A stretch of DNA of 64,000 bases from Anaeromyces robustus. Its lineage: Eukaryota > Neocallimastigomycota > Neocallimastigomycetes > Neocallimastigales > Neocallimastigaceae. Position numbers and translations under genes: made by a program. The notes under the pieces were generated by a model. It was given only the letters and a program-made list of their open reading frames with translations, had not been told where the DNA came from and did not search any database. The stretch covers positions 1 through 64,000 of the forward strand of contig MCFG01000045.1 of the NCBI GenBank assembly GCA_002104895.1, written 5' to 3'. Shown one piece after another: positions 12,467 through 49,812 of the stretch. Within the stretch, counting starts at the first letter, position 1. Every line of letters starts with the position of its first letter.

Positions 12467-12584
12467 TTAAAAATTTACTGTAATATTTATAAAATTGATA
12501 ATTATAATTAATTATGATAATTAATAATAATAATTTGAAATATATGTATTTAAAATAAAATTTATAAAAAATTAAATTAGATTA

Positions 12585-16830: not shown

Positions 16831-18800
16831 ATAAAGTAAAATTGCGATAAATAAAATGTTATAATTTATATAAATAATAAAATGTTTAAATAAAAGAACG
16901 TAATTTTTATCTTTATTTTTTTTAAAAAAATATAACTATAGGTAAAAAATATAAAATATAATATTTAAAATAGAATATAAAATAGAATCTATAAATAGAA
17001 TTATTTAAATAATAAAATGATTGAAATAAAGAAAATTAATAATTTTTATTTCTTCTCTTTTTTATTTTATAAATATTTTTATATATTATATTTATTGTTT
17101 TATTATATTATTTAATACAAAAAAAATAAAAACATAATATTATCTTATATATTAATGTTTATGGAATTTGTTGATCGTGATTTTTAAGTATAATTCATAC
17201 ATTCAAATATAATCAATGTATATATATATATATATAATTTTATTTTTATTTTATTTTTTTTTTATTTGGTAGATTATATTTACTTATTTATTTTATATAT
17301 TATAAAATTAAAATAAATACCTCTATACTTAAAATTAACGAATATTGATATTAAATAAGTACATATAATAAAATTTAAAAAATAATTATAATAAATTTAA
17401 ATATAAACTTAAAAAAATCATTTAATATATGATTCAAAAAAATTTCAATTAATTCTATTATTATATTTAATTTTTATTTATCATATTTTTTTTTTTTAAG
17501 TTTATTTTATTATGATTTTTATTAAATAAATTTTTTTTTTTATTTATTTTCATTTTTATTTGTTTTTTTATTCTTTTTTAAACTAAAAGAAAGGAATACA
17601 CTTTAATGTTTTTATTAATTATAAATAATTATTAATTCATTTAGATATAGTATCATTTAGATATAGTATAAAAAAAAATAAATTAAAAATTAAAAGAAAA
17701 TTCAATCTAAAAAATCTATTATATATATATAATATAAAGAATGATATAATAAATTTCTGAAATTATAATAGTTTCAATATAGGGTACTATTCAGATTTCA
17801 CTCCTTTTCAAATGGTAAAATATTATAAAACAAAGAAGTAACATCTGAATTAATGATAGTGTGGTGTCTACTTCCGAAGAACCTGAGGGTGAAATAATAT
17901 CAAAATTTAAGATATTACTATTAATATGTCTTATCAATTTAACGTTTGTCGCTCTTGATCTTAAAGTTATGGTATTATACCGTTCAAATAACAACTTCAA
18001 AAAGCTGCATAATATTGGTATTATTTTTATTAAAAAATCAGTCAAATCCACAAGATATGGAACAGAAAGTTCTTTTGAACTTTTGTAAGATCGTTTAATT
18101 AATTATTTCTATTTCCCTTTATCGAAATGCAGCTCTTCCAAAGCTAAAACTCCATTAAAAAAGAATAGATTAATTTTATGTTTTATATCTTTTTTATATT
18201 CTATCTTAGAGTATATATTACATAAGAATTGTTTCTTTAATTTTGTCTTCAAAAAAAGATGAAGAGGTCATTGAATAAATTTAGTAAATTACATTTAATT
18301 AGAGAGAAAAAAGGATGGCCAACAAGGGAAATAAAAAAGGCATTCTCTTAAAAGTTATTTTCGAGTTATAAACTATAATTAAAAATTTTTTGGTTTATAA
18401 ATCATATTTTATATAAATCATACTTTAAATATATATTAATAGGATTTTAATTCATTTATGTCTTATATTATATATAATACAATGAATTATAATAATAATA
18501 AAAAATCATAATTATTAATTGAATAAGAATCTTAATTATTTATATAAATAATGTTACACAAATAAATTAATAAATTGTTTTTTTAAATTTTTTATTTAAA
18601 AAAAATTGTTAAAATTTTTTAAAAAAAAATTATTATTTTTATTATCATTATACAAATAATTATAGTTTTATAAATATTAATAATTTTTTAAAATTGAAAT
18701 AAATATATCTATTAATTTTTTATCGATATATTTTAATTATGTAATATATACCAATATTGATTTCAGTTACTTTATATTATATTATTTTTAGTAAATTACA
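16831..18800. other. Spacer between LRR copies 2 and 3
   Basis: No gene. 17100-17760 aligns by eye with 22700-23225 and, in its right part, with 36258-36770. 17760-18372 is a whole copy of the shared repeat, listed separately. The remainder is homopolymer-rich. Confidence 0.6.
17760..18372. repeat. Shared ~0.6 kb repeat, copy R1
   Basis: Higher-complexity DNA than its surroundings, present at about 17760-18372, 23225-23832 and 36770-37378, with its 3' end alone at 12918-13030. Each copy contains a plus-strand reading with GIIFIKKSVK and an overlapping minus-strand reading with SRATNVKLIRH, 70-90 codons long. Neither matches a family I know, and both being open may only reflect recent copying. 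No terminal inverted repeats, tRNA-like boxes or target duplications were recognised. It could be an old mobile-element fragment or a piece of a decayed gene carried with the duplicated spacer. Confidence 0.7.
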
Positions 18801-21599: not shown

Positions 21600-21769
21600 A
21601 AATAAAATTTTCAAAATAAAATATTATTTATTTATTTATTTATTTATTTATTACAAATTTACTGTAATATTTATAAAATTAATAATTATAATTAATTATG
21701 ATAATTAATAATAATAATTTGAAAATAAAATAGAATTTGTGAAAATTTAAATTAGATTAGATAATAAGT

Positions 21770-22005
21770 AACAAATAATAAATAACAAATAATAAATAAC
21801 AAATATAAAATATAGAATATAGAATATAGAATATAGAATATAGAATATAGAATATAGAATATAGAATATAGAATATAGAATATAGAATATAGAATATAGA
21901 TTATAGAATATAGAATATAGAATATAGAATATAGAATATAGAATATAGAATATAAAATATAGAAAATAAAATATAGAATATAGAGTATAGAGTATAAAAT
22001 ATAAT
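21770..22005. repeat. TATAGAATA minisatellite after LRR copy 3 (longest)
   Basis: About 200 bp of almost perfect 9-bp TATAGAATA units, more homogeneous than the related arrays at 12585, 16640 and 27430, which mix TATAGAATA with TATAAAATA. This suggests recent expansion here. Confidence 0.92.
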
Positions 22006-24446
22006 TATTAAGTAGAATTGCGATAAATAAAAGAAAGTAATTTTTATCTTTATCTTTTTTATTAAATATAAAAAAAATTTTTTATTTTACTTTATAATAA
22101 TAATATATATTTATTTTAAATATTCTGTTTTCTAGATTTTTACATTATACATTAATATATATATATATATATTTGGTTTTTTATTTTGGTTTTCTTTTTT
22201 TTACTTTATCTATTATAATACCTTACGCATTTTATATTAGTTTCAATTATTATTATAATATTAATAATCATAATTAATTAATTTTTGAAATATTAGACAA
22301 AAAATTATATATATAAAATAATATGAAATAAAAAATAAAAAATTTAAAAAATAAAATATAAAATAGCAATAAATAAAATTATTTAAATAATAAAATGATT
22401 GAAATAAAAGAAAATTAAAAATTTTTTATTTCTTCTCTTTTTTATTTTTTATTTTTATTTTTTGTTTTTTATTTTTACTTTTATTTATTTATTTATTTAT
22501 TTATTTATTTTTTTTTTTTTTTTAATTTTAATAATATTATTTATTTATTTTATTTATTACAGTGGAGGTATAAATATAAGTAAATTAATAAATATATATT
22601 AATTTATATTATGATGAATAATAAAATATAGTTAATAGATAAGTAATAAATAATTATAAATTATGTTTAATATATGTATATTTATATATTATATTTATTA
22701 TTTTATTATTTAATACGAAAAAATAAATAAAAACATATTATCTTATATATTAATGTTTATAAGTATGGAATTTGTTGATTGTAATTTTTAAGTATAATTC
22801 ATACATTCAAATATATATTTTTATTCATATTTTTTATTTTTTTTTAACTAGTTGATTATATTTACTTAATTAATATCAATATTCGTAAATTTTAAATATG
22901 GAGGTATTTATTTTAATTTTATAATTTATAAAATAATAAGTACATATTATAAAATTTAATAAAAATCATTATAAAATTAACTTAAAAAAAAAAATATGTT
23001 AAATAAAAATATCATATATTAAATGATTTTTTTATTTTCTTTTTTTTTTTTATTTATTCTTATTTAAATTAAAAGAAGATAATACACTTTCATATTTTTA
23101 TTAATTATAAATAATTATTAATTCATTTAGATATAATATAAAAAAAAAATAAAAATTAAAAATTCAATCTAAAAAATCTAAAATATATATATAATATAAA
23201 AAAAAAATATAATAAATTTTTGAAATTATAATAGTTTTAGTATAGGGTACTATTCAAATTTCACTCCTTTCTAAATGGTAAAATATTATAAAACAAAGAA
23301 GTAACATCTGAATTAAAGATAGTATGGTATCTACTTCTGAAGAACCTGAGGGTGAAATAATATCACGATTTAAGATATTACTATTATTATGTCTTATCAA
23401 TTTGACGTTTGTCGCTCTTGATCTTAAAGGTATGGATTTATACCGTTCAAATAACAATTTCAAAAAGCTGCATAATATTGGTATTATTTTTATTAAAAAA
23501 TCAGTCAAACACAAGGTATGGAACAGAAAGTTCCTTTGAACTTTTGTAAGATCGTTTAATTAATTATTTCTATTTCCCTTTATCGAAATGCAGCTCTTCC
23601 AAAGCTAAAACTCCATCAAAAAAGAATAGATAAATTTTATGGTTTATATCTTTTTCATATTCTATCTTAGAGTATGTGTATTACATAAGGATTATTTCTT
23701 TAATTTTGTCTTCAAAAAAGATGAAGAGGTCATTGATAAAATTTAGTGAATAACATCTAATTAGAGAGAAAAAAGGATTGCCAACAAGGGCAATAAAAAA
23801 GGTATTCTCTTAAAAGTTATTTTTGAGTTATATATATATATATACTATAATAAAAAATTTTTTGGTTTATATATCATATTTTATATAAATAAAATATATA
23901 GTGAAATTCCTTTTTATTTCCTATAAAATTATTACATAAAGTACTATAAAAAGAATTAATCTTAACATGAAACTTATTAGAATACATTTAAATATAATAA
24001 ATTTATTAATTTGAACCTTAAACTGATTATATCATATTTTATATAAATCATACTTTAAATATATATTAATAGGATTTTAATTCATTTATTTCTTATATTA
24101 CATATAATACAATGAATTATAATAATAATAAAAAATCATAATTATTAATTGAATAAAAATCTTAATTATTTATATAAATAATGTTACACAAATAAATTAA
24201 TAAATTGTTTTTTTAAATTTTTTATTTAAAAAAGATTGTAAAAATTTTTTAAAAAAATATAATTATTTTTATTATCATTTTACAAATAATAATAGTTTTA
24301 TAAATAAAATATTTATTATTAATAATTTTTTAAAATTGAAATAAATATATATATCTATTATTTTTTTTTCTATATATTTTAATTATGTAACATATACCGA
24401 TATTGATTTTAGTTACTTTATGTAATATCATTTTCGGTAAATTACA
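22006..24446. other. Spacer between LRR copies 3 and 4
   Basis: No gene. The segment 22560-22810 is the spacer stretch replaced by the ~8.1 kb block in the next spacer. 23225-23832 is repeat copy R2. The conserved LRR 5' flank runs from about 23880. Confidence 0.6.
23225..23832. repeat. Shared ~0.6 kb repeat, copy R2
   Basis: Closest to copy R3 (36770-37378): both read GEIISRFKILLLLCLINLT where R1 has a lysine and an isoleucine variant. Same position in the spacer, about 0.6-1.2 kb before an LRR gene start. Confidence 0.75.
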
Positions 24447-27256
24447 ATGATGGCATCTTTTTTTTCAATTGTAATTTTAAATATAATTTATAACTTCATA
24501 AATACTTTTGTATATAGTAAAGAAATAAATGATTGTTCAAAATTAAAAAGTATGTTCAGTCATTATGATTGTATAAAGGAAGAATCTTTTTGCTTAACAG
24601 ATGATTGTCATTTATGTGGTGATATGATTAATAATAAAAGTGAATTAATCTTTGACAATAACGGAAATCTAATATCATTGTATATAATTATTTTTTTTAA
24701 TAATTTAATAATTTAATAATTTTTAAAATAATTATTAAAGAAAATATAATTTTTTTTATATGAATTAATTATATATAAAGGTATTTCATTTCTTCATGTA
24801 TTATGAATTTTGAAAATTTTCCTATTTTTACCGAACTAGAATATTTGTAATATTTGAAAAATAATAATTATCATATAAAAATATTTTATATATAGATAAT
24901 ATTAAAAATAATAATTAACAATATATAATAATATTATTTATATATAGTGGATTGTCTGTTTATATAATAAAATATAATAATAAATCAATTTTACCAAAGA
25001 TACTATTTGAATATCCAAAATTAAAAGAATTGTATATATATATATATTTAATATTTAATTATATATGAAAGATAGAAATATATTATTAATATATAAATTT
25101 ATATTATTGGTTAATAGATATATTAGTGGAAATATAGAGGATATACCTAAAGATATAAGTGATAATAATATAATTGAAAAAATGTAATATTTATATTTAT
25201 TTAATTATAATTAATAATTATATAATATAATTAAATAATTAAATTATATATATGTATATTCTTTTTATAGATCATTGTTCAGTAATATTCTTAAAACTTT
25301 TCCATATCAACTAACGAAGTTAAAACATTTAGAACATCTGTAAATTTTGTATTATTATTGTTATTAATGCTATTTATTTGATAATAATAATATATTTATT
25401 TAAATTTATATATATATTTTTTTAATAGTGATTTATCAATGAATAAGCTATCAGGTTCATTAAGTAAAAATTTTGCAAATTTTCAAAGAATTAAAGAAAT
25501 GTAAATATTATTTAAAAAGATAAAAATGTATTAAATATAATTGCATTTTATAATATTTTTAGTATTTTTTTTTTATTATTATTAATTTTAAAATATAAAT
25601 ACATATGTAAATAAATTATCATATAGAAATTTGAGATATAATAATTTAAAAGGTGAATTAATTATACCAGAAACGCTTGAACATATGTAAGAAAGAATAT
25701 TTAAACTTTAGAAAAAATAATTAAAAATTAATACTAATTATAAATGATATATATAATTTTAATTAAAGAGATGTTAATGGAAATGAATTTAATTCAATTT
25801 TATATTTAAGTGATCATAGAAGTGTATTACAGGAATTGTAAGTATACTATATTAATAATATATTATTAATTTAGTTAATAATATTAATCATACAATATTT
25901 TATATTTAAATCCATATAGGATGGTTAGCAATAATGATTTTGATGATAAAATTTTTGAAGATATTCAGGATTTTGAAATACTAACGAACCTGTAAAATAT
26001 TCTAATTTTTTTAATATTCTTTTTTTTTTTTACTTCTTCTTCTTCTTAGAATTATTAATATTTGTATAAATATATTTTTAACTGTTAAATTATATTATCT
26101 ATTACTAAAAAATATAGTGATTTATCATATAATATGAGAATTACAAAAGTTCCATCAACTATTAGCAGTTCTTCTTTTTTAGAAAGTTTGTAAGAAATAT
26201 ATAAAATTAAATAATTTAAAATTTTTATTAAAAAAACAAACAAACAAAACAAAAAGAAATAAAATATAACAAAAAAAAAAAAAAGAATCATAAATATATT
26301 AATTTAATTATTCTTTTATTATTAAATATTAAAATAGTGATATATCTTATTGTAATGTTAAAGAAATATCCAGCAATATCTTTAAATTACAAAAACTAAA
26401 AGTATTGTAAGTATATTTATATTATTTATACTTTTTTTTTCTTACTTATGTTATTATTAAACTATATTTATTATTATTATTATTTTTACTTATGTTATTA
26501 TTATAAAAATATATTTATAATTATTATTTTTACTTATGTTATTATTTTTAAAATTTATTTATTATTTTTTTTATTACTTATGTTATTAAAATATATTTAC
26601 TTTAATAATTATTGTTTTATTAACATCTTTATTATTATTATAAAAGTTCTATAAGTAATAATACAAATTTAAATATAAGTATTATAAATTTTAAAAATAA
26701 GTATGTTCAGTGTGACATTGAAGATGTTAATGTTTTATGTTATGAAACTGGAAGTTGTATGAATGTGGAAACTGAAAAATATAAAAACTGTACACAAGAA
26801 GAGATAAATAATGTTATTAAATCTCAAACTCCAGACATAATAAAACCTAAAAAGGAAGAAAAAGAGAAACAATTCAAAAATAACAATAATTTTTTAAACA
26901 ATAACATAAATTTAATAATTTTTTTAAGCATTTTTCTTATATTAATATTAATAACTATATCAATAAATTATATATTTAATAAAAAAAGAAATAATAATGA
27001 TATCATTATTACCAGAATTGAAACTAAAAGATTAACATCAAATAATAACATTAATAAAAATTATGAAAACCTATCCAATCAAAATAACAATAATAATTTT
27101 TTAACTGATAATCAAACAAAATCAAATAATAAATATAATAATTCTAATACTTCAATTACTTCTTTAAATATAAATCAACATCAACATTTACCAAGATACA
27201 GTGACTTAATAGATGATGATCATATAGGATTAATACAACGTAATAATTACAAATAA
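24447..27256 (+). CDS. LRR receptor-like membrane protein, array copy 4
   Basis: Same exon plan as copies 1-3. The cap reads CIKEESFCLTDDCHLC; the second exon ends IFTELEYL; a repeat exon gives LRYNNLKGELIIPETLEHI, with Lys in place of the Thr of copy 3. The final exon starts near 26647 and encodes the end cap, the membrane helix and the tail with LPRY and the terminal QRNNYK. The intron before the last exon carries a short tandem triplication of TTACTTATGTTATTATT. No break was seen. It is the last complete gene before the interrupting block. Confidence 0.74.
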
Positions 27257-27283
27257 AAATAAAAATTTTCAAAATAAAATATT

Positions 27284-27315
<32 letters not shown>

Positions 27316-27429
27316 TTATAAATTTACTGTAATATTTATAAAATTAATAATTATTAATTATGATAATTAATAATAATAATTTGAAATATATGTATTTCAA
27401 ATAAAATTTATGAAAAATTAAATTAGATT

Positions 27430-27575
27430 AGATAATAAATAATAAATAATAAATAATAAATAATAAATAATAAATAACAAATAACAAATATAGTGTATAG
27501 AATATAGAATATAAAATATAGAATATAAAATATAGAATATAAAATATAAAATATAGAATATAGAATATAAAATAT
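27430..27575. repeat. AATAAATAAT and TATAGAATA minisatellite after LRR copy 4
   Basis: About 60 bp of AATAAATAAT-type units followed by about 80 bp of TATAGAATA/TATAAAATA units; the shortest of the four post-gene arrays. Confidence 0.85.
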
Positions 27576-28086
27576 AATTATTAAGTAGAATTGCGATAAA
27601 TAAAATTTGACAATTTATTTAAATAATAAAATATATAAATAAAAGAAAATAATTTTTATCTTTATCTTTTTTATTAAATATAACTATAGGTAAAAAAAAA
27701 AAAATTTTTATTTAACTTTATAATAATAATATTTATTTATTTTAAATATTCTGTTTTATAAATTTTTACTTTATCTATTATAATACCTTACGCATTTTAT
27801 ATTAGTTTCAGTTATTATTATAATATCAATAATCATAATTAATTAATTTTTGAAATATTAGATAAAATAAAAAATATAAAATAAAAAATAAAATATTTAA
27901 ATTATAAAATACATATAAAATAGAATCGATAAATAAAATTATTTAAATAATAAAATGATTGAAATAAAAGAAAATTAAGAATTTTTATTTCTTCTCTTTT
28001 TTATTTTTTATTTTTTATTTTTTATTTTTTATTTTTTATTTTTTGTTTTTTGTTTATTATTTTTATTTTTACTTTTATTTATTTAC

Positions 28087-28133
<47 letters not shown>

Positions 28134-28174
28134 TTTTTTAACTTTAATAATATTATTTATTTTTTTTATTGTTA
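27576..28174. other. Spacer 3' of LRR copy 4 up to the inserted block
   Basis: No gene. It aligns with 22020-22560 up to a TTTA microsatellite and the motif TTTAATAATATTATTTATTT. Similarity stops near 28175. Confidence 0.65.
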
Positions 28175-31100
28175 TTAAACAGCAAATTCAACAACTATAG
28201 GTACTAATGCTGCCAATGGTAAAAATCTTTTTTCTAATTGTATTTCATTGTTATGATTATATATACTATTATTATTAAATAAAATAAAATCGTTATTTTC
28301 TTTTCGTTTATTTTTATTTTCATTTTTTTTTTTATTTTTATTTTTATTTTTATAAGAAGTTTTTCCATCTATATAATCTATTTTACCTATTTCTTCATAT
28401 TGATTATTATAATAATCATAATCTTATTGACTTAAATAACTACGTTCTGTGGTACCTGATTTTTCTTTATATCCACTCCAATTTCTTTCTCTAGTAAGAC
28501 TTGTTGTATTAGTTATAGTATGAGTATCATCTACCGTAACTCCATGAATATTAACTTCAGAATGTTCATTATTAACGAAAATATTTTTATCATCCGCTAA
28601 AGTAGATCTTTCAGAATGTGCTATAGAGACTGCTAATTCCAAGGTATTAGTATCTGCATTTGACTCTGATTGAGATATACTGTCAGTATGAGTTAAGGTA
28701 GATCCCACTTCAATAGTATTAGATATTTCATCCGTAAAAGTATCTATATTACTCTCAATATTTCCTATACTACGTGATATAATTTCTCCTTTAGAATTGG
28801 TAATGGAATATTGTCGTTCATTTGTAAAAGTAATAAGAGCATCACATCAACAATACATCCTTCACAATTACTTACAGCAGCACAATTTGTAAATCCTTGT
28901 GATAATCCACCGGATATATCATTAATAATATCATTAATAGAATTAGGTAATTGTACTATACCACCTGTGACATGTCTAATATTAGGAACACGATTGTTAA
29001 TACCTATAATCAATGATTTATGATAAGAATTAAATTTTGGATTATTACTAACTAGCGGTATACATTGTTGTTGACTACTTTTTAATTTATTATAAATAGC
29101 ATCAATATAATTACTAATTATTTCTTTTGATTCTTCAATGGTATTTATACCTTTTATATATGGATTAATAATTTCTTTTTCATTTTCATTTTCATTTTTA
29201 TTTTTATTTTCATGTATTTCAGTACTTTCTTTATTTTCTTTATTTTCATTATCATTTCTTCTTTCTAATTTCTTTTGGATAGATGGAGTATCATAATAAA
29301 TACCAATACTATTAACCATAGTACTATTATCACACCAAGAAACCCCATACCATGTAGGACCTAAAACTTTGGCATATTCTTCAATAGTCTTAGTATATAC
29401 AACATTTTCATCATTATCGAAATATGCAGGATCATAAACTTTAGTTATACCTTTATGATTATAACGACAAAATATTTTAGATACATTTGCTAAAATATAC
29501 TATTAGCAAAGAATATACAAAGTACAATATTAATTAACATTAGAATTTTTTTTTTTTTATTATTTGATTTTAAATAATAAGTAATAATTAATTTTAATAC
29601 TTTTTTACTTTATTATTATTTTTAGCATAACTATGATTATGAATATTATCAATATTATTCATATTAAGTTTTATATTTATTACTAATCCTTTATCATTTA
29701 TATTTATATTATTTTTTATAATATAATTAGATACGTATTTAACAACATCATTAAAGTATTTTTTATAATCATTAATAGTAACTTGATTTTCTCTTCCTAA
29801 CATTTTTGAGAATTTATAATACGACCCTCCTATATATATATATTAAATTTTCTCACACTATTTTCTACATGGGTTTTAATATCTTTCGTCATAGAATCTT
29901 TTATTTTATTATCATATTCTGACATTTCATTAAATACTTCTTCTACATTGACATTTACATCTTCTGAAATTTTAGATTCAATATTAGGATTATATTGTTT
30001 AACTTCATCTATAGCTTCAGAAAATGCTTGATTTTAAAATTCATCAATAGATTGTATATTTTTTACTAATTTATTATGCAATTTATTATAATTACGTGAT
30101 ATAGCATTAGCATCTTTTTGATTTATACTACCTGGTGATTGATAATTCATGTATTGAAAACTTAATTCAACGGAATACCCCAAAGTATCATGTGATTCAA
30201 TTATACTATCTTCAATTAAATGGGATAGGACATCAGATTTATTATTAATATTTGAATGATCAAAAAACATATTTATTAAACTAGATTTACTTATTACGGA
30301 AACAGTATTACTTCCCCAAGTAAAACTACCTTCTTTACGGAATTAATTTTTAATATTATATATATAATCTTCAGGATTTATGATTTAATATATAGATATT
30401 GTCCACCCACTCTATATTCAAGTTTTACACCTGATTCTGATATAATATGTATTCCTTTACCCTCTACATAACCTGTATTTTCAAAATCATCATTAAAAGT
30501 ATTTGATGATTTTTTACCATATCCATTTATTCTTTTATTAACATCTGTTAAAGTTAATGATTCTATTTTTGAAGTATCAATCATATATTTAGAATTATCA
30601 TCTTCACTATCTTTAACAATAAAATGTAATATATTTTCATTACCGTTATTTTCTTTAATTAAAGTAAAATCTGTGTTTTCTTTAATACTTTTATAAATGG
30701 CATCTTTATCGTAAAATAATTCATAACATTCTTTAGTATTAATACAACTTTCTCCTACATCTTTATATAAAGTATATATTTCAGAATTTTCATCCATTAG
30801 AGTACTACCATTTTTATATATTTTTAATATATTATTACTATTTCCAGTAACACCATTCTTAATAAATTCTTTAAAATTATAATTATTATAATACTAATGT
30901 TCATGACTAACCCTATCTGGATTTTCTACTTTTCTATCATAAATAGACATAATATTTAATTCTTTGTCACTGTCCATTAATTGAATTCCAGTTAGCTTTC
31001 TAAATATATCTATATTTTCCATATGATTTTCAAATTCCGTTTCCATTCCACTAGGATTATCTTTATATCTATTATATAATTCTGATACATATGGATCATT

Positions 31101-31472
31101 TAGATGTTCAATATATTCATAACCTAATCTATCACATACTATTATTTCAGCTAATTTATATAATTCCTTAAACCTTCTTTCAATTTCTTTCGTTTTTTTA
31201 GAATCAGTATCATAGTTAGAATCAGTTTTAACTTCGTTTAATTTTGGAATTATTTCAGTAATATCTTTAATATATTTATTATTGTCAAAATTTTTTATAC
31301 TAATATTAATTTTTAAAGGTTTTTCATCTAAATCTTTAACTATATTACCCTTATGATCACCAGCTGATAAAATTAATAAAGCTATCTGTAAATCCAAATG
31401 ATTGTATGGACTACAATCAACTTTAATAATATATAATATTAATAATGATATAAAATATTTAATATTATTCAT
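28175..31472 (-). pseudogene. Decayed gene for a large secreted protein, family not recognised
   Basis: The 5' end (31472) encodes a clear signal peptide (MNNIKYFISLLILYIIKVDC) followed by acidic, Lys/Asn-rich sequence. Coding character (codon-like composition, no homopolymers) continues on the minus strand to about 28175, where a hydrophobic end is seen. A segment in the middle third has several cysteines (NCAAVSNCEGC). A segment near the 3' end is rich in Ser, Thr and His and resembles the low-complexity repeats seen in large secreted proteins of gut fungi. The unit is broken, with about five or more interruptions, and is treated as a relic. I do not recognise its family, and it gives no firm hint of activity. 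Confidence 0.6.
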
Positions 31473-31715
31473 TTTAATAAATATTTTTTAATATTGATTT
31501 TTAAAAAAAAAAAAATCATTTTATAAATATTAAATAATATTTTAAAAATTATTATTAAAAAATATATATATATTTAAATTTATTATCAATATTTTAAAAA
31601 TTATTATTAAAAAAAAAATATTTAAATTTATTATTAATTTCAATATATCAATATAATATAATATAATATAATTTACTAATTTATTAAATAAATAATTAAT
31701 ACTTTACTCTATATA
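31473..31715. other. Short AT-rich gap
   Basis: Contains a near duplicate of about 60 bp built on ATATTTAAATTTATTA at 31560-31640 and an ATAAT run. Nothing else is seen. Confidence 0.6.
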
Positions 31716-32945
31716 TTATTTTACACCAACATCAATTAAAAATTCTATATTTTCTATATTATATAAATAGACTACTTTTAATAATGAATCACCGTATTTA
31801 TTTTTTATATTTAATTTTGCTCCATTTTTAATAAATATTTTAAGTACATTACTATATAAATATCGACAAGCTTCAAATATTGGTGTTTCACCTTCATTAT
31901 TTAGTATATTTATATTTGCTTCCCTTTTAATTAAATATTCCATTAAAGTTTCTTCTCCTACAAATTTATAATATTTACAAGTCATATGCAATGGTGTATT
32001 TCCTTCATTATCTTGTTTATTAATATCAGCACCATAATCAAGTAATACTTTTACTATCTTCTTTCGTCCATATTTACAAGCTATTATTAAAGGAGTTTCT
32101 CCTTTATTATTTGGTTTATTTATATCTGCCCCTTGGTTTATTAAAAATATTACATTATCTTCATTAAGCGTAGTTCGAGATAAATTTATTAATGGTGTAT
32201 TACCTTCATTATCTTGCGCATTTATATTTGCTCCACGTTTTAATAATTTATCTATTGTACCTTCTTTTTTATATCTATTTTGTATACAAGCTTTATGTAA
32301 TGGCGTTTCACCTTTATTATTTTGTATATCAATATTATATTCTTTACTAAATAGTAATAGTGGTGTAGTAAGATTACCACTCTTAGCACCTATATGTAAT
32401 AATGTATTATTTTCATTATCTTTTATATAAATATAAGCACCATATTTATTAACTAACATATTTATTATATCTTTACAATTATGGTAAGAAGCAATAAATA
32501 AAGGATTAACTATTCTTCGAACGTTATATTTATCAGTACTATTTTTTTCATAATAGTCATATCTATCAATTACATTAAAATTAATCACAGAATTACATTT
32601 ATCTTCTTTTTCTTTAATTAATAATAATTCAAATTCTTTTTTTGAAAATTTTATTTTATTTTTATAATATAAAAGTAACTTTAAAATAAAGTTACTATTA
32701 TATTTAAAAAAATTATTAACTTCATAATCTCTATCATATCTATAATTTTCAAATAATTCTTTTAATACTGATTCCAAGATTTCTTGTCTTTTTAATTTAG
32801 GTAAACTAAGATCTTTAATTATTAAACAAATTAATAATTTAATTTCTTCAGATTTAAAATTACCTTCATTATACAAATTATACTCTTTAAGATATTTTAT
32901 TACAATTGAATTTTTTTTATGTTTATAATATTCAAGATTATTCAT
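31716..32945 (-). CDS. Ankyrin-repeat protein, 409 aa, intronless
   Basis: Single open frame. Residues 1-146 form a charged, helix-prone N-terminal region without a recognised domain (KYLKEYNLYNEGNFKSEEIK near the start). From about residue 147 to the end there are about eight ankyrin repeats, with the hallmark G-x-TPLH (NNKGETPLHKAC) and GA-D/N-IN segments spaced at about 33-37 residues. No signal peptide or membrane helix, so it is likely intracellular, with a protein-binding role; the partner is unknown. Intronless ankyrin proteins with a similar N-terminal region are common in gut fungi; ankyrin proteins also abound in large DNA viruses. The nearby virus-type relic keeps the second origin open, but composition does not separate the two. 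Confidence 0.85.
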   Translation of the reverse strand: MNNLEYYKHKKNSIVIKYLKEYNLYNEGNFKSEEIKLLICLIIKDLSLPKLKRQEILESVLKELFENYRYDRDYEVNNFFKYNSNFILKLLLYYKNKIKFSKKEFELLLIKEKEDKCNSVINFNVIDRYDYYEKNSTDKYNVRRIVNPLFIASYHNCKDIINMLVNKYGAYIYIKDNENNTLLHIGAKSGNLTTPLLLFSKEYNIDIQNNKGETPLHKACIQNRYKKEGTIDKLLKRGANINAQDNEGNTPLINLSRTTLNEDNVIFLINQGADINKPNNKGETPLIIACKYGRKKIVKVLLDYGADINKQDNEGNTPLHMTCKYYKFVGEETLMEYLIKREANINILNNEGETPIFEACRYLYSNVLKIFIKNGAKLNIKNKYGDSLLKVVYLYNIENIEFLIDVGVK

Positions 32946-33514
32946 ATTAATTATAAATTAAACTAAAAAAAATAATAATATTATTAATTGTCAAAATATT
33001 TTATATAGTTTAACTATTTTAAAAAAAAATTTAATAATATATCAATTTATACAATTTCACATAATGTATTAACAACAAAATAAAAACATAAATTAATTTA
33101 TTTTATATTTTATATTATATTCATTATAAATAAATTAAAATTAAAATGGGTAATTTACTTATATTGAATGATGTATATTACATAAATAAATTAAAATTAA
33201 AATGGGTAATTTACTTATATTGAATGATGTATATTACATAAATAAAAAGTCAAGTAAAAAAATATTATAGTCAACATTTATATTAAATAATACTTTTTTA
33301 TACTTTATACTTTTTACTTTTTAAATAATAAATAAATTTTTATAAATTGATTTTTTCAATAATAAAATTTAAAAAATATATATATATATATATAAATATA
33401 TATAATACTATTAATTATAATATTAATAATTAATAATTAAAATAATAATAATTAATATAATAATATTTAATTAATAACAATTATAAATATATAATTTCAT
33501 TATATTATATAAAA
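32946..33514. other. Divergent intergenic region with a 56-bp duplication
   Basis: Lies between the divergently transcribed ankyrin (-) and GPI-type (+) genes, so it probably holds both promoters. 33131-33242 is a perfect direct duplication of a 56-bp unit containing GGGTAATTTACTTATATTGA, the only conspicuous feature. Confidence 0.65.
33131..33242. repeat. Perfect 2 x 56 bp tandem duplication
   Basis: Two identical units beginning TAAATTAAAATTAAAATGGG lie between two divergent gene starts. Perfect identity in such AT-rich DNA points to a recent event. A doubled regulatory site is possible but untested. Confidence 0.9.
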
Positions 33515-34261
33515 ATGAATATTAATAGTTTATATATTATTTTATTAATATCTGTTATTTCTAGGGTTAATTCTACTAATATTTCAAAATTGTTAAAAAG
33601 AAATATAGAATTTGATGCAGAAAAATTTTATGATAATTTAAGTAAAGAATGTATTGAAGAAAATCAAAATTCTGAAATTAGTAATAACTGTATACCTTCA
33701 ATTACTTTAAGTAATTATAAAGAAAAATGTGCAAGTATTAAATCAGAATTATGTCAAACTTTTTATAATGATCCAAATCTAACAAAATATTATCCAATTT
33801 GTAGTCAATTTCCTCAATATAAAGAATATTTTCAACCAAGTATATTTAATTTTTTTAAACAGAATTATGAACTTGATTGTTTAACAGATGAAAATGATAA
33901 TTTATGTCCATATTTTTTATTTAGAATTACAAAAGGAGACACTTCAGGTGTTTTAGAAAATAATTGTAAATCCAAAAAATGTACTGAATCTACAATTAAA
34001 TTACTTAAAAACATTAATATTGATCAATTCGCAGCTTATGAAAATTTATCATTTACTTCTGGATCATTTTCTTATGAATCATTAACTTTACCTGATACTT
34101 TAATTTCTATAATGGAATCTGATGAATGTAAATCCATGCATTCAAATAATAATAATAATAATAGTAATAATAATAATAATGATACTAGTAATGCTAAATC
34201 TATTAAAATTAATAATAATATTTTATTAATTATGTTAATTTTACTAATATTTTTTTATTAA
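33515..34261 (+). CDS. Secreted cysteine-rich protein with GPI-type C-terminus, 248 aa
   Basis: Intronless. Residues 1-20 are a signal peptide (MNINSLYIILLISVISRVNS). The mature part has ten cysteines (residues 46, 59, 72, 80, 96, 122, 131, 151, 156 and 205), consistent with disulfide bonds, including the segment NNCKSKKCTES. An Asn-rich linker (about 210-223) is followed by a small-residue stretch and a terminal hydrophobic tail with no charged residue after it (NNNILLIMLILLIFFY). This is the layout of fungal GPI-anchored wall or plasma-membrane proteins. No catalytic motif is seen. The AAT/AGT-coded Asn run is slippage-prone. Family not firmly recognised; it resembles uncharacterised fungal cysteine-rich GPI proteins. 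Confidence 0.75.
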   Translation: MNINSLYIILLISVISRVNSTNISKLLKRNIEFDAEKFYDNLSKECIEENQNSEISNNCIPSITLSNYKEKCASIKSELCQTFYNDPNLTKYYPICSQFPQYKEYFQPSIFNFFKQNYELDCLTDENDNLCPYFLFRITKGDTSGVLENNCKSKKCTESTIKLLKNINIDQFAAYENLSFTSGSFSYESLTLPDTLISIMESDECKSMHSNNNNNNSNNNNNDTSNAKSIKINNNILLIMLILLIFFY

Positions 34262-34911
34262 ATAGAATTAAATAATTAAATTTGGTAAAATTTACTATCT
34301 CAGATAGATTTATTTTAAAAATAAAAAATAAAAAAAATATATATATACATATATTAATATTATTAAAATAAAAATAAAAATATATAAATTAAATTAAATT
34401 AAATTAAATAATTTATATTTATATATTTTTTAAAAACAAAATTTTTAAATGTATGATTAAAAATACATTAAATTAATAACAATATTTATTAAAAAAAATA
34501 ATAATAATAATAATTTTTAATGTAAATCGTTACATATATAATTATTTAAAATTAAAAAAAATTTTTTATTCATTTAAAATTTATTAATTTTTGATATAAA
34601 ATTATATATTTAAACAAATATTTTTAAAAATTAAAAAAAAAAAAAAAAATAAATAAATATTCTTCTTAAGAATATATAAATTAAAATAGGAATTATTAAA
34701 ATAATTTTAAAAAGTTTTTAAAAATTTTTAAAAATGGTATAATATATATAATATTATTAAAACAATGTTTTAAAAAATTTATATTAGCTATATAAAATAA
34801 ATATATAAAATATTTTAGTTACTATAATAATCTTTATTTTATTTATAAATAATAATACAATATTATATGCAATTTTTTTTTTTTATTTTTTATTATAATA
34901 ATATTAAATAA
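34262..34911. other. Convergent intergenic region
   Basis: Lies between the 3' ends of the GPI-type gene (+) and the capping-enzyme relic (-). It consists of A/T homopolymers and short AATT duplications, with nothing assignable. Confidence 0.7.
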
Positions 34912-36184
34912 TCAATGATTATTATTAATATTTGAAAATTCAATAATTTTTATATTTGAAGTATACAATATTTGTGATTCATCAAGAAATGGAAAAGTAT
35001 CAATAGTATATTCATTTAAAATTTTAAATCCATATTTTTCAAATATTTTTTTGACATGATTACCATTTATACCATTTTCATATTTATTAATAATATAAGA
35101 ATTGGCAATATTAATATACATAATATTATCACATTCTAAATGAGCATATCTAAGATAACTTAATAAATAAATTGGAGATGATTTATCTATTTCAATAGTA
35201 AAATTACCAGTTTCAGAGTCTATACACTTTTTATAGGTAATAGAAGAAGAGTTGATATTTTTGGTAAATAAATCGTAATCGAAAAATACAACGGAAAAAA
35301 TTCCATTTATATTTTTAGAAATATTTTCGAGCATATCAGAAATGTTTGTATAGGTTAAATCATTTAAAGTAAAAAAACAAGAAACAACATCATAAGTATT
35401 GTCTAATTTTACATTTTCAATAGTATTTTGAAGAATTGAAATGCGATTGCGAATTTCAGATTTTGAAACACGTTCGTTCAAAACTTTTATTTTTTCATAG
35501 TCTGGTTCCACACAAACAATTTTGCGGAAATTTTTCCATTTATGAATATCTCCTCCATTTCCTGTTCCTATATCCAACAGTGTTCCTCTATACTTATTGA
35601 GTATATTTTGCTTAATCCTATTATGATACTTTCGCATTAAAACGGTGGATAAAGGTAAAAAAAATTTCAATATTTATTTTCTGATAAGAAGCCAGTAATA
35701 TACTATTAAAAGTATTTATACTATTGGAGGTATACTTATCTTTTCGTACTTTAACTAACGTTTTATTATCTAGATTTATTTCGACTATAAAAGGAATTTT
35801 TTTCTCTCTGACTAAACGGTAACGAACATCACGTTTATCAGTTAACCTATAAAAATTAACAGATTCTATTTGTTTTTGGTAATAATAATGGTTAGTATTT
35901 ACCTTGGTTGGATTATTTTCATTACTTTCATCTTTTTTATAATACAATTTTTTATGTTGGTGATATAATTGACATATTTTTTTATATTCAGATAAGGATA
36001 AGTTTAATTTTATTTTCTTTACTAATGTTTTTTTAGCATAAAAATATCTTCCATCAAATCTAAGATCTACCGAATTTATTGTTTTTATTTTATAAACATT
36101 CAAATTATCATAATAAGATGATCTTCCGTCCGTGATAATGATTCCATCATTTGGAATGGATTTAGTATCATTTTCTTTAGTCAT
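34912..36184 (-). pseudogene. Virus-type mRNA capping enzyme relic (guanylyltransferase end plus N7-methyltransferase)
   Basis: Two coding parts are recognisable in the order used by capping enzymes of large DNA viruses (poxvirus and asfarvirus type) and of yeast cytoplasmic linear plasmids. The upstream part has the nucleotidyltransferase motif pair DGIIITDG and YKIKT followed by a short OB-like stretch. The downstream part has the SAM-binding motif LLDIGTGNGGDIHKW and a class I methyltransferase layout typical of cap guanine-N7 methyltransferases. The normal fungal capping system uses separate guanylyltransferase and methyltransferase genes, so this linked arrangement points to a virus-like source. 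The copy looks broken, with about two breaks, and is treated as a fossil. The open stretches are still long, which argues for modest age. A linear-plasmid source is the main alternative. Confidence 0.72.
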
Positions 36185-36211
36185 AGAAATTACAAAATTT
36201 CTATGACTAAA
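36176..36211. repeat. Perfect hairpin, 16-bp stem, 4-nt loop
   Basis: Arms TTTAGTCATAGAAATT and AATTTCTATGACTAAA flank the loop ACAA. It overlaps the 5' edge of the capping enzyme relic and lies about 50 bp inside the right edge of the inserted block. The stem includes GTCATAG, so it is not a simple A/T palindrome. It could be a remnant of a virus or plasmid end, or chance. Confidence 0.9.
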
Positions 36212-36257
36212 TTATTGATTATAATTATTAATCTACGAAATCCATCGGTTTTAGATA

Positions 36258-37829
36258 TATTCAATATATATATTTTTATTCATATTTTTTATTTTTTTTA
36301 ACTGGTAGATTATATTTACTTATTTAATATCAATATTCGTAAATTTTAAATATGGAGTTATTTATTTTAATTTTATAATTTATAAAATAATAAGTACCTA
36401 TAATAAAATTTAAAAAATATAATTAAAAAATTAAAAAAATTTTTTAATAAAAAAAAATATGTTTAATAAAAATCATAATAAAATAAACTTAAAAAAAAAG
36501 AAAAAAATATGATAAATAAAAATTAAATATAATAATAGAATTAATTAAAATTTTTTTGAATCATATATTAAATGATTTTTTTATTTTCATTTTTATTTGT
36601 ACTTATTCTTTTTTAAATTAAAAGAAGAGAATACACTTTCATGTTTTTATTAATTATAAATAATTATTAATTCATTTAGATATAATATAAAAAAAAATAA
36701 AAATTAAAAATTCAATCTAAAAAATCTAAAATATATATATAATATAAAAAAAAAATATAATAAATTTTTGAAATTATAATAGTTTTAGTATAGGGTACTA
36801 TTCAAATTTCACTCCTTTCTAAATGGTAAAATATTATAAAACAAAGAAGTAACATCTGAATTAAAGATAGTATGGTGTCTACTTCTGAAGAACCTGAGGG
36901 TGAAATAATATCACGATTTAAGATATTACTATTATTATGTCTTATCAATTTGACGTTTGTCGCTCTTGATCTTAAAGGTATGGATTTATACCGTTCAAAT
37001 AACAACTCCAAAAAGCTGCATAATACTGGTATTATTTTTGTTAAAAAATCAGTCAAACACAAGGTATGGAGCAAAAAGTTCCTTTGAACTTTTGTAAGGT
37101 CGTTTAATTAATTATTTCCATTCCCCTTTATCGAAATGCAGCTATTCCAAAGCTAAAATTCCATCAAAAAAGAATAGATAAATTTTATGGTATATATCTT
37201 TTTCATATTCTATCTTAGAGTATATATTACATAAGAATTGTTTCTTTAATTTTATCTTCAAAAAAAGATGAAGAGGTCATTGATAAAATTTAGTAAATTA
37301 TATCTAATTAGAGAGAAAAAAGGATTGCCAACAAGGGCAATAAAAAAGGTATTCTCTTAAAAGTTATCTTCTAGTTATATATATATATATACTATAATAA
37401 AAAATTTTTTGGTTTATATATCATATTTTATATAAATTATACTTATTAATAAGATTTTAATTCATTTATGTCTTATATTATATATAATACAATGAATTAT
37501 AATAATAATAAAAGATAATAATAACTATTAATTGAATAAGAATCTTAATTATTTATATAAATAATGTTACACAAAATTAAATTAATAAATTGTTTTTTTA
37601 AACTTTTTATTTAAAAAAAATTGTTAAAATTTTTTAAAAAAATATAATTATTTTTATTATCATTTTACAAATAATAATAGTTTTATTAATAATATCTTTA
37701 TTATTAATAATTTTTAAAATTGAAATAAATATATATATCTATTAATTTTTTTCTATATATTTTAATTATGTAATATATACCGATATTGATTTTAGTTACT
37801 TTATATAATATCATTTTTAGTAAATTACA
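36258..37829. other. Spacer remnant and 5' flank before LRR copy 5
   Basis: Resumes the spacer sequence of the array. It contains repeat copy R3 and then a version of the LRR 5' flank shortened on its left side (from about 37430). No other gene. Confidence 0.65.
36770..37378. repeat. Shared ~0.6 kb repeat, copy R3
   Basis: Nearly identical to R2 (23225-23832) over its length, including TATAGGGTACTATTCAAATT at the left and GATTGCCAACAAGGGCAATA near the right. The match confirms that the interrupted spacer was the same type as the spacer before LRR copy 4. Confidence 0.78.
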
Positions 37830-39499
37830 ATGATGGCATCTTTTTTTTCAATTGTAATTTTAAATATAATTTATAACTTCATAAATACTTTTGTATATAG
37901 TAAAGAAATAAATGATTGTTCAAAATTAAAAAGTATGTTCAGTAATTATGATTGTATAAAGGATGAAGCTTTTTGCTTAACAGATGATTGTCATTTATGT
38001 GGTAATATGATTTATGGTAGAAGTGAATTAAAATTTGACAATAACGGAAATCTTATATCATTGTATATAATTAATTTTTTTTTAATAATTTAATAATTTA
38101 ATAATTTTTAAAATAATTATTAAAGAAAATATAATTTTTTTTTATATGAATTAATTATATATAAAGGTATATCAATACTTATTGTTATATATATTTTGAA
38201 TATTTTCCAATTTTTACCGAACTAGAATATTTGTAATATTTAAAAAATAATAATTATCATATAAAAATATTTTATATATAGATAATATTAAAAATAATAA
38301 TTAATAATATATAATAATATTATTTATATATAGTGGATTGTCTGTTTATGGAATAAAATATAATAACAAATCAATTTTACCAAAGATACTATTTGAATAT
38401 CCAAAATTAAAAGAATTGTATATATATATTTAATTATTTAATTATTTAATTATATATGAAAGATAGAAATTTATTATTAATATATAAAAATATTATTATT
38501 GGTTAATAGAGAGATTAGTGGAAATATAGAGGATGTACCTAAAGATATAAGTGATAATAAAATTGAAAGAATGTAATAATTTATTTAACTATAATTAATA
38601 ATTATTTAATATAAATAAATAATTAAATTATATATATGTATATTCTTTTTATAGAACATTGTTCAATAATATTCTTAAAACTTTTCCATATCAACTAACG
38701 AAGCTAAAACATTTAGAATATCTGTAAATTTTGTATTATTATTATTGTTATTAATGCTATTTATTTGATAATAATATATTTATTTAAATTTATATATATA
38801 TTTAATAGTGATTTATCATCAAATGAGCTATCAGGTTCATTAAATAAAAATTTTGTAAATTTTCAAAGAATTAAAGAAATGTAAATATTATTTAAAAAGA
38901 TAAAAATGTATTAAATATAATTGCATTTTATAGTATTTTTAGTATTTATATTTTTTTTTATTATTAATTTTAAAATATAAATATATATATGTAAATAAAT
39001 TAACATATAGAAATTTGAGATATAATAATTTAAAAGGTGAATTAATTATACCAGAAACACTTGAATATATGTAAGAAAGAATATTTAAACTTTAGAAAAT
39101 ATTATTTAAAAGTAATTCTAATTAGAAATGATATATATAATTTTAATTAAAGAGATGCTAGTGAAAATAAATTTAATTCAATTTTATATTTAAGTGATCA
39201 TAGAAGTGTATTACAGGAATTGTAAGTATATTATATTAATAATGTATTATTAATTTAATTAATAATATTAATCATACAGTATTTTATATTTAAATCCATA
39301 TAGGAAGGTTAGCTCTAATGATTTTGATGATAAAATTTTTGAAGATATTCAGGATTTTGAAATACTAACGAACTTGTAAAATATTTCAATTTTTTTAATA
39401 TTTTTTTTTTTTTTTGTTTTTTTTACTTCTTCTTCTTCTTCTTATAATTATTAATATTTGTATAAATATATTTTTAACTGTTAAATTATATTATCTATT
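37830..39499 (+). pseudogene. LRR receptor-like gene, array copy 5, 3'-truncated
   Basis: Exons equivalent to the first nine of copies 1-4 are present and in frame: the cap (CIKDEAFCLTDDCHLC), then LRR exons up to the one containing NDFDDKIFEDIQDFEILTNL. Similarity stops near 39499 inside the next intron, just after a segment matching TTAAATTATATTATCTATT in copy 4. The last LRRs, the membrane helix and the cytoplasmic tail are therefore missing, and no substitute membrane exon is seen downstream. If expressed it could give a secreted, soluble ectodomain, but loss of function is the simpler reading. Confidence 0.7.
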
Positions 39500-40694
39500 G
39501 CGAAGAATAATCATGAGTATTATTTATATTACTATTAATTAATATAGAAAATTATATTAAAAAATTTAATTTTATTATTATTTTAATATATTATTGAAAG
39601 ATTCACCATTTATTTTATTATTAATTAAAGTTATATATAATAAAATAATAAATGTATTGTGACACTTCGTATTAAAATTCGAATAATAAAAATTATAAAA
39701 TTTTCTTTTTTTATTATTATATTTATTATTTAATTTTCTCAATAATAACCTTAATACAGTACAAATAGTAATTATGCATATAATGGAATAATAAAATCTG
39801 TTGAATTTTCTTTTTTTCTGATTATGTTAATTATTTAAAATATTAATTCGAAGTGTAATTTAATTCAAAATGTAATTATATATGTAATTTATTACTATGT
39901 TAATTATATAGAATTTTAAAATTATAATTTAACTCTTTTATTTAATTAATAGAATATTGAAAGGTTCGCCAAATGTTTCACTTTATATTAAAGATATACA
40001 TTTTATTCTTCTCTTGTTTTATACTGGTTATTTAAGAAATAAAATGGCTAAATAACTAGAATTAATTAATATAACACAAAAAACTTAAAATATCTAATAA
40101 AATATTTACTTTTCATTTCTTTTATAATTAAGCAATAAAATAATAAATGTGTATAATATATAATTTTATATTATATTATTTTAATAAATGTTTTATAATA
40201 GAAATGTTTTTGTGTGATTTTATTAATATATTTTATAATAAAAAAGCTTTTATATGTTTTTATTAATACATTTTATTACCGTTATATTTTAAAGGTTGAT
40301 TAGCAATTACATTATTCTTCATTAAAAAATAGTTTTAATGAATAATAATAAAAAAAATTTTTTTTAAAACTATATAAAGAGCTAAAATGGTTTCCATTTT
40401 TTAAATTTCATTAAGAATAAAAATTACAAATATTAATAATATATTTGTTTAATTAAAAAATTATAATATATAAAACAAACCTATTTCTACTATATTTACC
40501 GATAATAAAGTAATTATTTTATTAATATAAAGAAGTAAATTATTTAGTAATAATAATATATAATAAAATAATGAAATACATTATATTATATTTAATATAT
40601 TTTTATTTATCCATTAAATTTAATACTAAAATATTCTATATATATATATATATATATATATTATGAATATATATTCATAGATATTTAAAAAAAA
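39500..40694. other. Unique intergenic DNA after the LRR array
   Basis: No gene. A weak inverted pair, TGACACTTCGTATTAAA near 39660 and AATTCGAAGTGTAA near 39848, brackets about 200 bp. Otherwise AT-rich with nothing assignable. Confidence 0.55.
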
Positions 40695-43887: not shown

Positions 43888-44919
43888 TTAAGCACGATCA
43901 CCACCTAAATTTTTAATATAATTATCAATTAAAGGTCTTTCGTAGTAATTTCCTTCAGTTTCCGTACCATAACGATTTGGTAAAACAACCCATTTTTCTG
44001 GTTGACTATGAATATCACTAGTGAACATATGATTAACATAACCAATAAGATATTTAGAAAATTGAGTATTTTTCATGTAGAAATCACTTGGATAATTATC
44101 ACCTTTGTATTTATTGAAATCATAAACATAAATATCAACATTCATCCATTGATCATACCATTTATCATAATCTAATTTAACATAACTCCAGAAAGCACAA
44201 TGATTATCAGCAACAGTTAAAATATGATCATCGCCAACCCCCATAATAATAGCAAGTTGACGGAAAAGCATATGATAACCTCTTTGATTAGCAGAACGTT
44301 GAATAATAATATTAGCAACATTACCACCACTACCATTCTTATCAATATTTTCATTAATTTTTTTAGCAAGTTGATATAAAGCCTTCTTTTTCTTTTCTCT
44401 AGCAAAAGTACCAGCTTCATCTAAATCTGGTTCATCAAATGGAATTTTCCAACTTCTAAGTAAATTTTCAGATAATTTATCCACTAAAGTTGGAACACCA
44501 CGACCTTCAAATGTAATATTATGACTACATTCAGAGAAACCATTTGATGTAATTTCTAATTTATAAGTATTAACAATAATTTTTTTTAATTTTTTACATC
44601 TAAGGAAAGCAGAATCTTCTAAGGTAATGACTTCTTGACTACGATCAAAAGTAACTTCTTCAAAATCTTCTTCAACAAAAGCACCATGAAGAATACTACG
44701 AATATAATATCTATCACCTTCAAGTACAACATAAGATGGAATATGAATACTTTTAGCATTTCTATATTTTGGACCTAAACCAGAAATATCAGCAATTCCT
44801 GATTTAGGAGCAGTAATCTTTAAATAGAAATAATCATTAGTTTGATTTGGTCCAGCAGGAAGACCAAAAATTAAAGTAAAGTTTAATACTAAAAGAGAAA
44901 TGATACTGAAGATTTTCAT
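43888..44919 (-). CDS. Secreted BspA-like/transglutaminase-like protein 1, 343 aa
   Basis: Intronless. Residues 1-20 are a signal peptide (MKIFSIISLLVLNFTLIFGL). Residues about 55-140 contain BspA-type LRR pieces (IHIPSYVV, LHGAF, ITLEDSAFLRCKKLKKIIV). Residues about 175-270 have the fold signature of a transglutaminase-like domain: RGYHMLFRQLAIIMGVG, then His240 in the AFWSYVKLD context and Asp262 in NVDIY. In active members a cysteine lies two residues before the GY (CxGY); here that position is Gln212. The His-Asp pair is kept while the nucleophile is missing, so catalysis is doubtful and a binding role is more likely. BspA-like repeats are a bacterial and protist surface family, so acquisition from rumen microbes is plausible. 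Paralogue at 48781. Confidence 0.78.
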   Translation of the reverse strand: MKIFSIISLLVLNFTLIFGLPAGPNQTNDYFYLKITAPKSGIADISGLGPKYRNAKSIHIPSYVVLEGDRYYIRSILHGAFVEEDFEEVTFDRSQEVITLEDSAFLRCKKLKKIIVNTYKLEITSNGFSECSHNITFEGRGVPTLVDKLSENLLRSWKIPFDEPDLDEAGTFAREKKKKALYQLAKKINENIDKNGSGGNVANIIIQRSANQRGYHMLFRQLAIIMGVGDDHILTVADNHCAFWSYVKLDYDKWYDQWMNVDIYVYDFNKYKGDNYPSDFYMKNTQFSKYLIGYVNHMFTSDIHSQPEKWVVLPNRYGTETEGNYYERPLIDNYIKNLGGDRA

Positions 44920-48780: not shown

Positions 48781-49812
48781 TTAATTACGATCACCAGTTA
48801 AATGGTACTTCTTTAAGTAAGTATCAATTAACATATAGTTTGAATGTAAACCTTCATTACTAGTACCATAACGAGAATCATAAACATACCATTTACCTGG
48901 GTTTTTGTGAATTTCATCATTCTTTAATGGAGCTTCCTTAATAAGATGAGCAATAAATTGACTATTGTTCATATAGAAATCACTTGGATAAGTTTTACCA
49001 GTGTATTTACTATAATTATAATTATAAATATCAACATTAACCCATTGATTATTATATTTATCATGATCAAATTTAACTAAACTCCAGAAAGTACAATGAC
49101 TGTCACTAACAGTTAAAATATGATTAGCACCAACACCCATAGTTATAGCAAGTTCACGGAAAAGCATATGATAACCTCTACTAGAAGCATGATGAGTAAT
49201 AAGAATACTAGCAACATTAGCATTACTATTTCCCCATTGATTATCTAACATACCCATAATTTTTTTAGCAAGTTTATATAAATCAGCTTTTTTTTGTTCT
49301 CTAGCATTAGTACCAGCATAATCATAATCTTTTTTACCAACAGGTAAATCCCAATTTTCAAGTAAATTTTTAGATAATCTTTCTACTAAATTTGGAATAC
49401 CATTACCATCAAAGAAAACATCATTACATTTTCTAAAAGCACCATCATTAACCACTAAATTTTTATTTTCAACAATAACTTTAGTTAATTTTTGATTATT
49501 ATAGAAGGATTCGTATTCTAAAACAACAGTTTTTGGACTTTCTTCAAAAACAACAGTTTCAACATTAGAATTAGCAAAAGCTCCATTAAGAACTTTAGTA
49601 ACATAATATTTATTACCATCATTTTCAAAATATGGTGGAACAGAAATAGTAGTAGCACCTTTACTATATGGACCTAAACCAGAAATATGAGCTTCAAGAG
49701 TATTACTAGTAAGCCAATAATAGAACATACCATTACTATTATATTTAGATGGTGCAGCAAAAGCAGCCCAAATATTTAAAACAGTTAAAAGAGCAATATT
49801 AAATAATTTCAT
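48781..49812 (-). CDS. Secreted BspA-like/transglutaminase-like protein 2, 343 aa
   Basis: Paralogue of the gene at 43888-44919: same strand, same length, same domain order, intronless. Signal peptide MKLFNIALLTVLNIWAAFAA; BspA-type pieces LNGAFANSNVETVVF and FRKCNDVFFDGNGIP; transglutaminase-like region ASSRGYHMLFRELAITMGVG, with His239 (DSHCTFWSLVKFD) and Asp261 (VNVDIY). The expected catalytic cysteine position is Ser211, unlike Gln212 in the other copy. The two have changed this site independently while conserving the surroundings, including the RGYHMLFR core and the N-x-YPSDFYM segment further on. Wide divergence in the repeat half suggests an old duplication. Confidence 0.78.
   Translation of the reverse strand: MKLFNIALLTVLNIWAAFAAPSKYNSNGMFYYWLTSNTLEAHISGLGPYSKGATTISVPPYFENDGNKYYVTKVLNGAFANSNVETVVFEESPKTVVLEYESFYNNQKLTKVIVENKNLVVNDGAFRKCNDVFFDGNGIPNLVERLSKNLLENWDLPVGKKDYDYAGTNAREQKKADLYKLAKKIMGMLDNQWGNSNANVASILITHHASSRGYHMLFRELAITMGVGANHILTVSDSHCTFWSLVKFDHDKYNNQWVNVDIYNYNYSKYTGKTYPSDFYMNNSQFIAHLIKEAPLKNDEIHKNPGKWYVYDSRYGTSNEGLHSNYMLIDTYLKKYHLTGDRN

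Follow-up and report, generated by a model that had tools for sequence, protein, structure and literature searches.

Results

The DNA analysed here, called the window throughout, is a stretch of 64,000 nucleotides from the anaerobic gut fungus Anaeromyces robustus (phylum Neocallimastigomycota; contig MCFG01000045.1, positions 1 to 64,000), and on its minus strand lies the remnant of a gene for an mRNA capping enzyme that is very probably of nucleocytovirus type. An open reading frame (ORF) of 252 amino acids at 34912..35670 encodes a cap N7-methyltransferase domain with the S-adenosylmethionine (SAM)-binding motif LLDIGTGNGGDIHKW and the motif LMRKYHN, and its protein is 96% identical to copies on two other contigs, C504 and C435. 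A second ORF of 187 amino acids at 35621..36184, also on the minus strand, encodes the C-terminal part of a guanylyltransferase with its OB domain, including motifs IV (DGIIITDG) and V (YKIKT); the frames of the two ORFs differ, and about 50 bases are common to both. The methyltransferase matched PF13649 (5.5e-8) and, below the cut-off of that profile, PF03291 (8.6e-4), and the guanylyltransferase part matched mRNA_cap_C (PF03919, 1.1e-4), again below the cut-off. These ORFs are not chance: the longest open frame in the capping stretch has 253 codons, a length that 500 order-1 Markov resamplings of it did not approach (114 at most), and elsewhere in the A. robustus genome the methyltransferase and guanylyltransferase pieces have protein matches of up to 96% and 94% identity, respectively. 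An initial annotation of this DNA had described a guanylyltransferase end followed by a cap N7-methyltransferase with the three motifs LLDIGTGNGGDIHKW, DGIIITDG and YKIKT at 34912..36184; the ORFs and motifs are present as described, but the remnant does not end there and extends to 36254.

The gene is badly damaged, retaining only guanylyltransferase motifs I, IV and V, the OB part and the methyltransferase. Homology to the C504 copy is continuous to 36200, jumps by about 250 bases, and resumes at 36208..36254 (minus strand), a piece of 47 bases that holds the remnant of motif I (KTDGFRRLIIIINNL; KTDGFRR) and matches L052 4368-4414 at 46 of 47 positions. Motif I is thus set apart from the rest by the loss, compared with C504, of about 250 internal bases. 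At the joint of this deletion is a perfect inverted repeat (36176..36211) with 16-bp arms and a 4-base loop, in which one of the arms repeats bases of the capping gene itself in inverted orientation; among the 17 inverted repeats in the window with perfect arms of at least 14, this is the only one with at least 3 G/C, and the hairpin looks like a fold-back template-switch scar. Where the capping homology ends, a repeat copy begins (36252..39507) that belongs, by self-comparison of the window, to the same family as a tandem array of a ∼4-kb repeat at 8991-28119 and that directly adjoins the viral block; ORFs of 163 codons without a Pfam match recur within the array. Since the 5′ part is missing, the interior is deleted and the reading frame is broken, the window copy is unable to make a working enzyme. 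Relative to C504, its methyltransferase part has a nonsynonymous divergence (dN) of 0.014 and a synonymous divergence (dS) of 0.019, and its guanylyltransferase/OB part a dN of 0.029 and a dS of 0.169. The identity between the two copies is therefore mosaic, a pattern to be expected if copies or strains had recombined.

The window copy is one of many. A search of the A. robustus genome (70.2 Mb, 769 contigs) returned 68 matches to the methyltransferase piece and 36 to the guanylyltransferase/OB piece at E 0.1 or better; once matches with E above 0.001 had been dropped (11 of 68 and 6 of 36, leaving 57 and 30) and neighbours within 3 kb joined, these resolved into at least 47 capping gene loci on 42 contigs, 18 of which have both parts. 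Open frames of 640-955 codons occur on four contigs (C190, C320, C504 and C417). In the C504 copy the N-terminal domain is missing and other sequence is fused on, and the C417 copy (L053 4468-6387), which is only 34-38% identical to the other long copies and has a metagenome relative (P0162) at 53%, is a distant form that represents, judging from its sequence, a second lineage within A. robustus. Among the remaining three, dN/dS was 0.29 for C190-C504, 0.34 for C190-C320 and 0.31 for C504-C320, values showing that the long copies diverged under purifying selection, which probably acted largely in the virus. The word fossil, which had been applied to this locus, therefore suits the window copy, which is damaged yet recognisable, but not those other copies that keep long open frames, with a dN/dS of about 0.3 between them.

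In the long copies on C190, C320 and C417, a triphosphatase, a guanylyltransferase and an N7-methyltransferase are joined in one chain, and across an alignment of 10 sequences the ELEFR-type motif of the triphosphatase, the catalytic-lysine motif KxDGxR and the DG and lysine motifs of the guanylyltransferase, and the SAM-binding motifs of the methyltransferase are invariant. A model of the C320 enzyme (P0003; mean predicted local distance difference test score 74, with a weak N-terminal third) was compared to viral structures with Foldseek, and ranks 1-6 and 8 were taken by the marseille-/pithovirus group at E 1e-34 to 1e-30: Tunisvirus (1.2e-34), Pithovirus LCPAC404 (5e-33), LCPAC101, Marseillevirus LCMAC102, Pithovirus LCPAC102 and Pithovirus sibericum, followed by Solumvirus, Pithovirus LCPAC304 and, in ninth place, African swine fever virus (ASFV; 7.8e-30), with poxvirus lower. 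These matches run along the chain, at identities of 12-16% and TM-scores below 0.5. The virus type first assigned to this enzyme is upheld, but its nearest named structures are of the marseille-/pithovirus group instead of poxvirus or asfarvirus. The Pithoviridae and Marseilleviridae capping enzymes (Pithovirus sibericum W5SB45, Tunisvirus V9SF61) resemble the gut-fungal enzyme in a structural match over the whole triphosphatase-guanylyltransferase-methyltransferase chain and differ in their low identity and in the OTU protease part that several pithovirus records carry and the gut-fungal copies lack. ASFV NP868R and poxvirus D1 have the same three-domain order, although they are only ∼13-15% identical to the gut-fungal enzyme and were not recovered by sequence profile. 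The vaccinia capping enzyme tops the PDB list for the C320 model; PDB searches with the whole C320 enzyme or with the C417 enzyme alone gave nothing useful, and IMG/VR scans for the capping enzyme (5 and 78 stretches) confirmed no relative. Because the methyltransferase domain taken singly is equally close in structure to cellular and viral enzymes, the fold alone is not decisive, and it is the layout, the linkage and the sequence signature that decide.

The linkage is plainest on C320, where a cluster at 11.7-28.6 kb contains a family B DNA polymerase, PolB (11696-15533; PF00136 at 1.1e-63, and PF03104), a D5-type primase-helicase with one internal stop (18538-20490; PF08706), RPB2 (21396-24994), a uracil-DNA glycosylase (UDG; 24951-25565) and the capping gene (25950-28589). 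Contigs C122, C190 and C96 likewise carry matches to both PolB and the capping enzyme. In Neocallimastix californiae, a uracil-DNA-glycosylase-like sequence precedes the capping enzyme within one annotated protein (P0025), giving it the same neighbours as on C320. Solved-structure matches to PolB were led by Pol delta; against viral structures, the PolB model ranked Pithovirus LCPAC104 first (22% identity), with Emiliania huxleyi virus, Marseillevirus LCMAC102 and Heterosigma akashiwo virus as close runners-up. We found 207 PolB relatives, the best 120 of which were listed. In a tree of 53 rows made by a quick method with support from the Shimodaira-Hasegawa-like approximate likelihood-ratio test (SH-aLRT) only, in which several rows were flagged for composition and P0101 had a long branch, one branch (SH-aLRT 100) set off nine gut-fungal rows, seven of them from named sources, which were joined by five metagenome rows (99), whereas six cellular Pol delta rows clustered elsewhere (95), apart from the gut-fungal clade. 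Among the best 80 of 570 loci in an IMG/VR scan for PolB, the polymerases were distant, with at best 29-35% identity in short segments. From the structural rankings, at these low identities, the gut-fungal family would likely be placed near the pitho-/marseillevirus branch. A six-frame profile search for the major capsid protein (PF16903, PF04451) and VLTF3 (PF04947) gave no matches but had no positive control, and 10 IMG/VR PolB records tried as a capsid control had no PF04451 match either.

A. robustus has its own Abd1, the cap methyltransferase of the fungal nucleus, as a separate and dissimilar gene on C452 that was matched in four pieces and carries the motif VFDMCCGKGGDFGKW. The start of the window methyltransferase scored z 27-36 against four giant-virus-like metagenome proteins and z 6.7 against an exon of the host Abd1, in a comparison that left out P0163-P0165, which are without the RKYHN motif. 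Relatives of the capping enzyme numbered 39; all 25 with a named source came from Anaeromyces, Neocallimastix or Piromyces (A. robustus, Neocallimastix californiae, N. lanati, N. 'constans', Piromyces finnis and Piromyces sp. E2), and the other 14 were metagenome or other entries. The contact with gut fungi that had been proposed from the window is borne out by its fungal genome and by these relatives in Neocallimastix and Piromyces. Many full-length capping and PolB genes of Neocallimastix lie on contigs of 30-93 kb, which may reflect either repeats that break assemblies or episomes; in N. lanati, the capping enzyme and PolB were each matched on a contig of 93040 bases.

The capping remnant belongs to a larger block, 30799-36254, that is collinear with C504 at 89-100% (comparison windows with at least 200 compared bases). 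A 248-amino-acid ORF with a signal-peptide-like start and no Pfam match (33515..34261, plus strand) is 85.9% identical to its counterpart on C504 and 48.3% to that on C320, and because it adjoins the capping gene in those two copies as well as in the window, we regard it as part of the capping neighbourhood. The window and C504 also have in common, both on the minus strand of the window, an ankyrin-repeat protein of 409 amino acids (31716..32945; PF12796, 6e-51; 98.6% identical to C504 over 281 amino acids), which is found on C190 too (84.6%), and a secreted-like protein of 192 amino acids (30894..31472; 98.4% to C504). At the edge of the element-related block is the remnant of a secreted-protein gene (28182..29579, minus strand), rearranged relative to C504, with 71% DNA identity to L052 678-2033 and an ORF that is 47% identical over 163 amino acids.

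Two other features of the window were recorded. Duplicated 343-codon genes with 67.6% DNA identity lie at 43888-44919 and 48781-49812 (minus strand), the first with a weak LRR_5 match. An 801-codon FeoA-FeoB fusion gene at 57471-59876 (minus strand) has 30% GC amid 13% GC, and its best bacterial relatives in a genome scan were mainly Bacteroidales, mostly at 35-55% identity; by its sequence, it is likely a bacterial gene transferred into the fungus.

Discussion

We conclude with considerable confidence that what remains in the window is an inactivated copy of an mRNA capping gene of nucleocytovirus type, lying in DNA from a large-DNA-virus family that is endogenous to anaerobic gut fungi. The enzyme of the original virus would have capped transcripts made by the viral RNA polymerase, out of reach of the nuclear capping machinery of the host, a role suggested by its architecture and by the linked RPB2. 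Viral DNA would then have entered the nuclear genome of A. robustus, where pieces of it stayed behind or were duplicated at dozens of sites. The copy in the window lost its 5′ part at the repeat and bears an internal deletion with a fold-back scar that suggests template switching, in addition to the break in its reading frame.

It is conceivable, though we think it improbable, that a nucleocytovirus lineage which has given up its capsid is still active in gut fungi, where it would persist by integrating into the genome or partly as an episome. This idea arises because long open copies under apparent purifying selection occur in several genera, many on contigs of 30-93 kb, and because core replication and transcription genes are present while capsid and VLTF3 genes were undetected in a search without a positive control. 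An extrachromosomal element was considered for the long copies on small contigs and found no support on C320, the ends of which are alike only in AT-rich matches and which has host-like genes outside the cluster (translations read by eye).

A rival source is the yeast-type cytoplasmic linear plasmids, or virus-like elements, which the initial annotation had named as a possibility. Their ORF3 product (pGKL2) is described as a three-domain capping enzyme like vaccinia D1, accompanied by an RNA polymerase and a helicase of their own (PMC6211774), as is the case here for the enzyme and the polymerase, and the high AT content of the gut-fungal DNA would suit such an origin. However, the polymerase linked to the capping gene is of the PF00136/PF03104 type, with solved-structure matches led by Pol delta, and PF03175, which we take to be the type of protein-primed plasmid polymerases, was absent from its matches at E 0.05. 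The D5-type helicase and UDG beside it also speak against a plasmid, as do the ends and flanking genes of C320. Yeast elements have terminal proteins, inverted terminal repeats and a cytoplasmic linear form, none of which was seen here; no terminal inverted repeat stood out between the fetched ends of C320, a single contig that may not end where the element ended. A linear plasmid is thus disfavored as the source and probably not what the window copy derives from; we rate it very unlikely.

Descent from a duplicated and decayed nuclear capping gene of the fungus is hardly credible. The methyltransferase fold is indeed common to the window enzyme, Abd1 and RNMT, but Abd1 is a stand-alone gene with another motif set, is present independently in A. 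robustus, and scores far below the giant-virus-like proteins against the window methyltransferase, so a host origin was rejected. Neither the fused three-domain copies nor the PolB, D5-type, RPB2 and UDG genes beside a long copy fit it, and the best reading, in agreement with what was first proposed, is that the window copy does not belong to the fungal capping machinery. Contamination or an assembly artefact can be dismissed with similar assurance, for although full-length copies tend toward small contigs (30-93 kb) and a sequencing error might account for the frame break, the window lies on a contig of 261 kb, the 47 loci on 42 contigs show all stages of decay, relatives are annotated in three genera, and the window copy has two independent lesions besides the frame break.

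The endogenous viral family of gut fungi has parallels. Nucleocytovirus genes have been reported in Gonapodya, Allomyces and Rhizophagus (PMC5294986), and a later report describes a 1.5-Mb endogenous nucleocytovirus region in Rhizophagus irregularis, an asfarvirus sister without a capsid homologue (PMC10640383). Viral polymerases and other core genes lie in the nuclear genomes of those fungi as they do in gut fungi, and no capsid gene was found in Rhizophagus or in our own search, which had no positive control; in contrast to the Rhizophagus region, the gut-fungal fragments are scattered and seemingly nearer the pitho-/marseillevirus branch. According to PMC10640383, large DNA viruses that infect fungi have yet to be isolated. 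Endogenous nucleocytoviruses of fungi are thus already published, and the gut-fungal family is a further case. Gong et al. in 2020 reportedly described two endogenous groups, one of them near Pithovirus, in about seven fungal phyla, which may well include gut fungi. Among the literature matches listed, none paired gut fungi with nucleocytoviruses.

Spanning three gut-fungal genera in many copies that range from long open frames to scraps, this viral family provides a workable record of contact with large DNA viruses. Its hosts, the rumen fungi, are ecologically and industrially important, and the family bears on the existence of nucleocytovirus lineages that do without a capsid.
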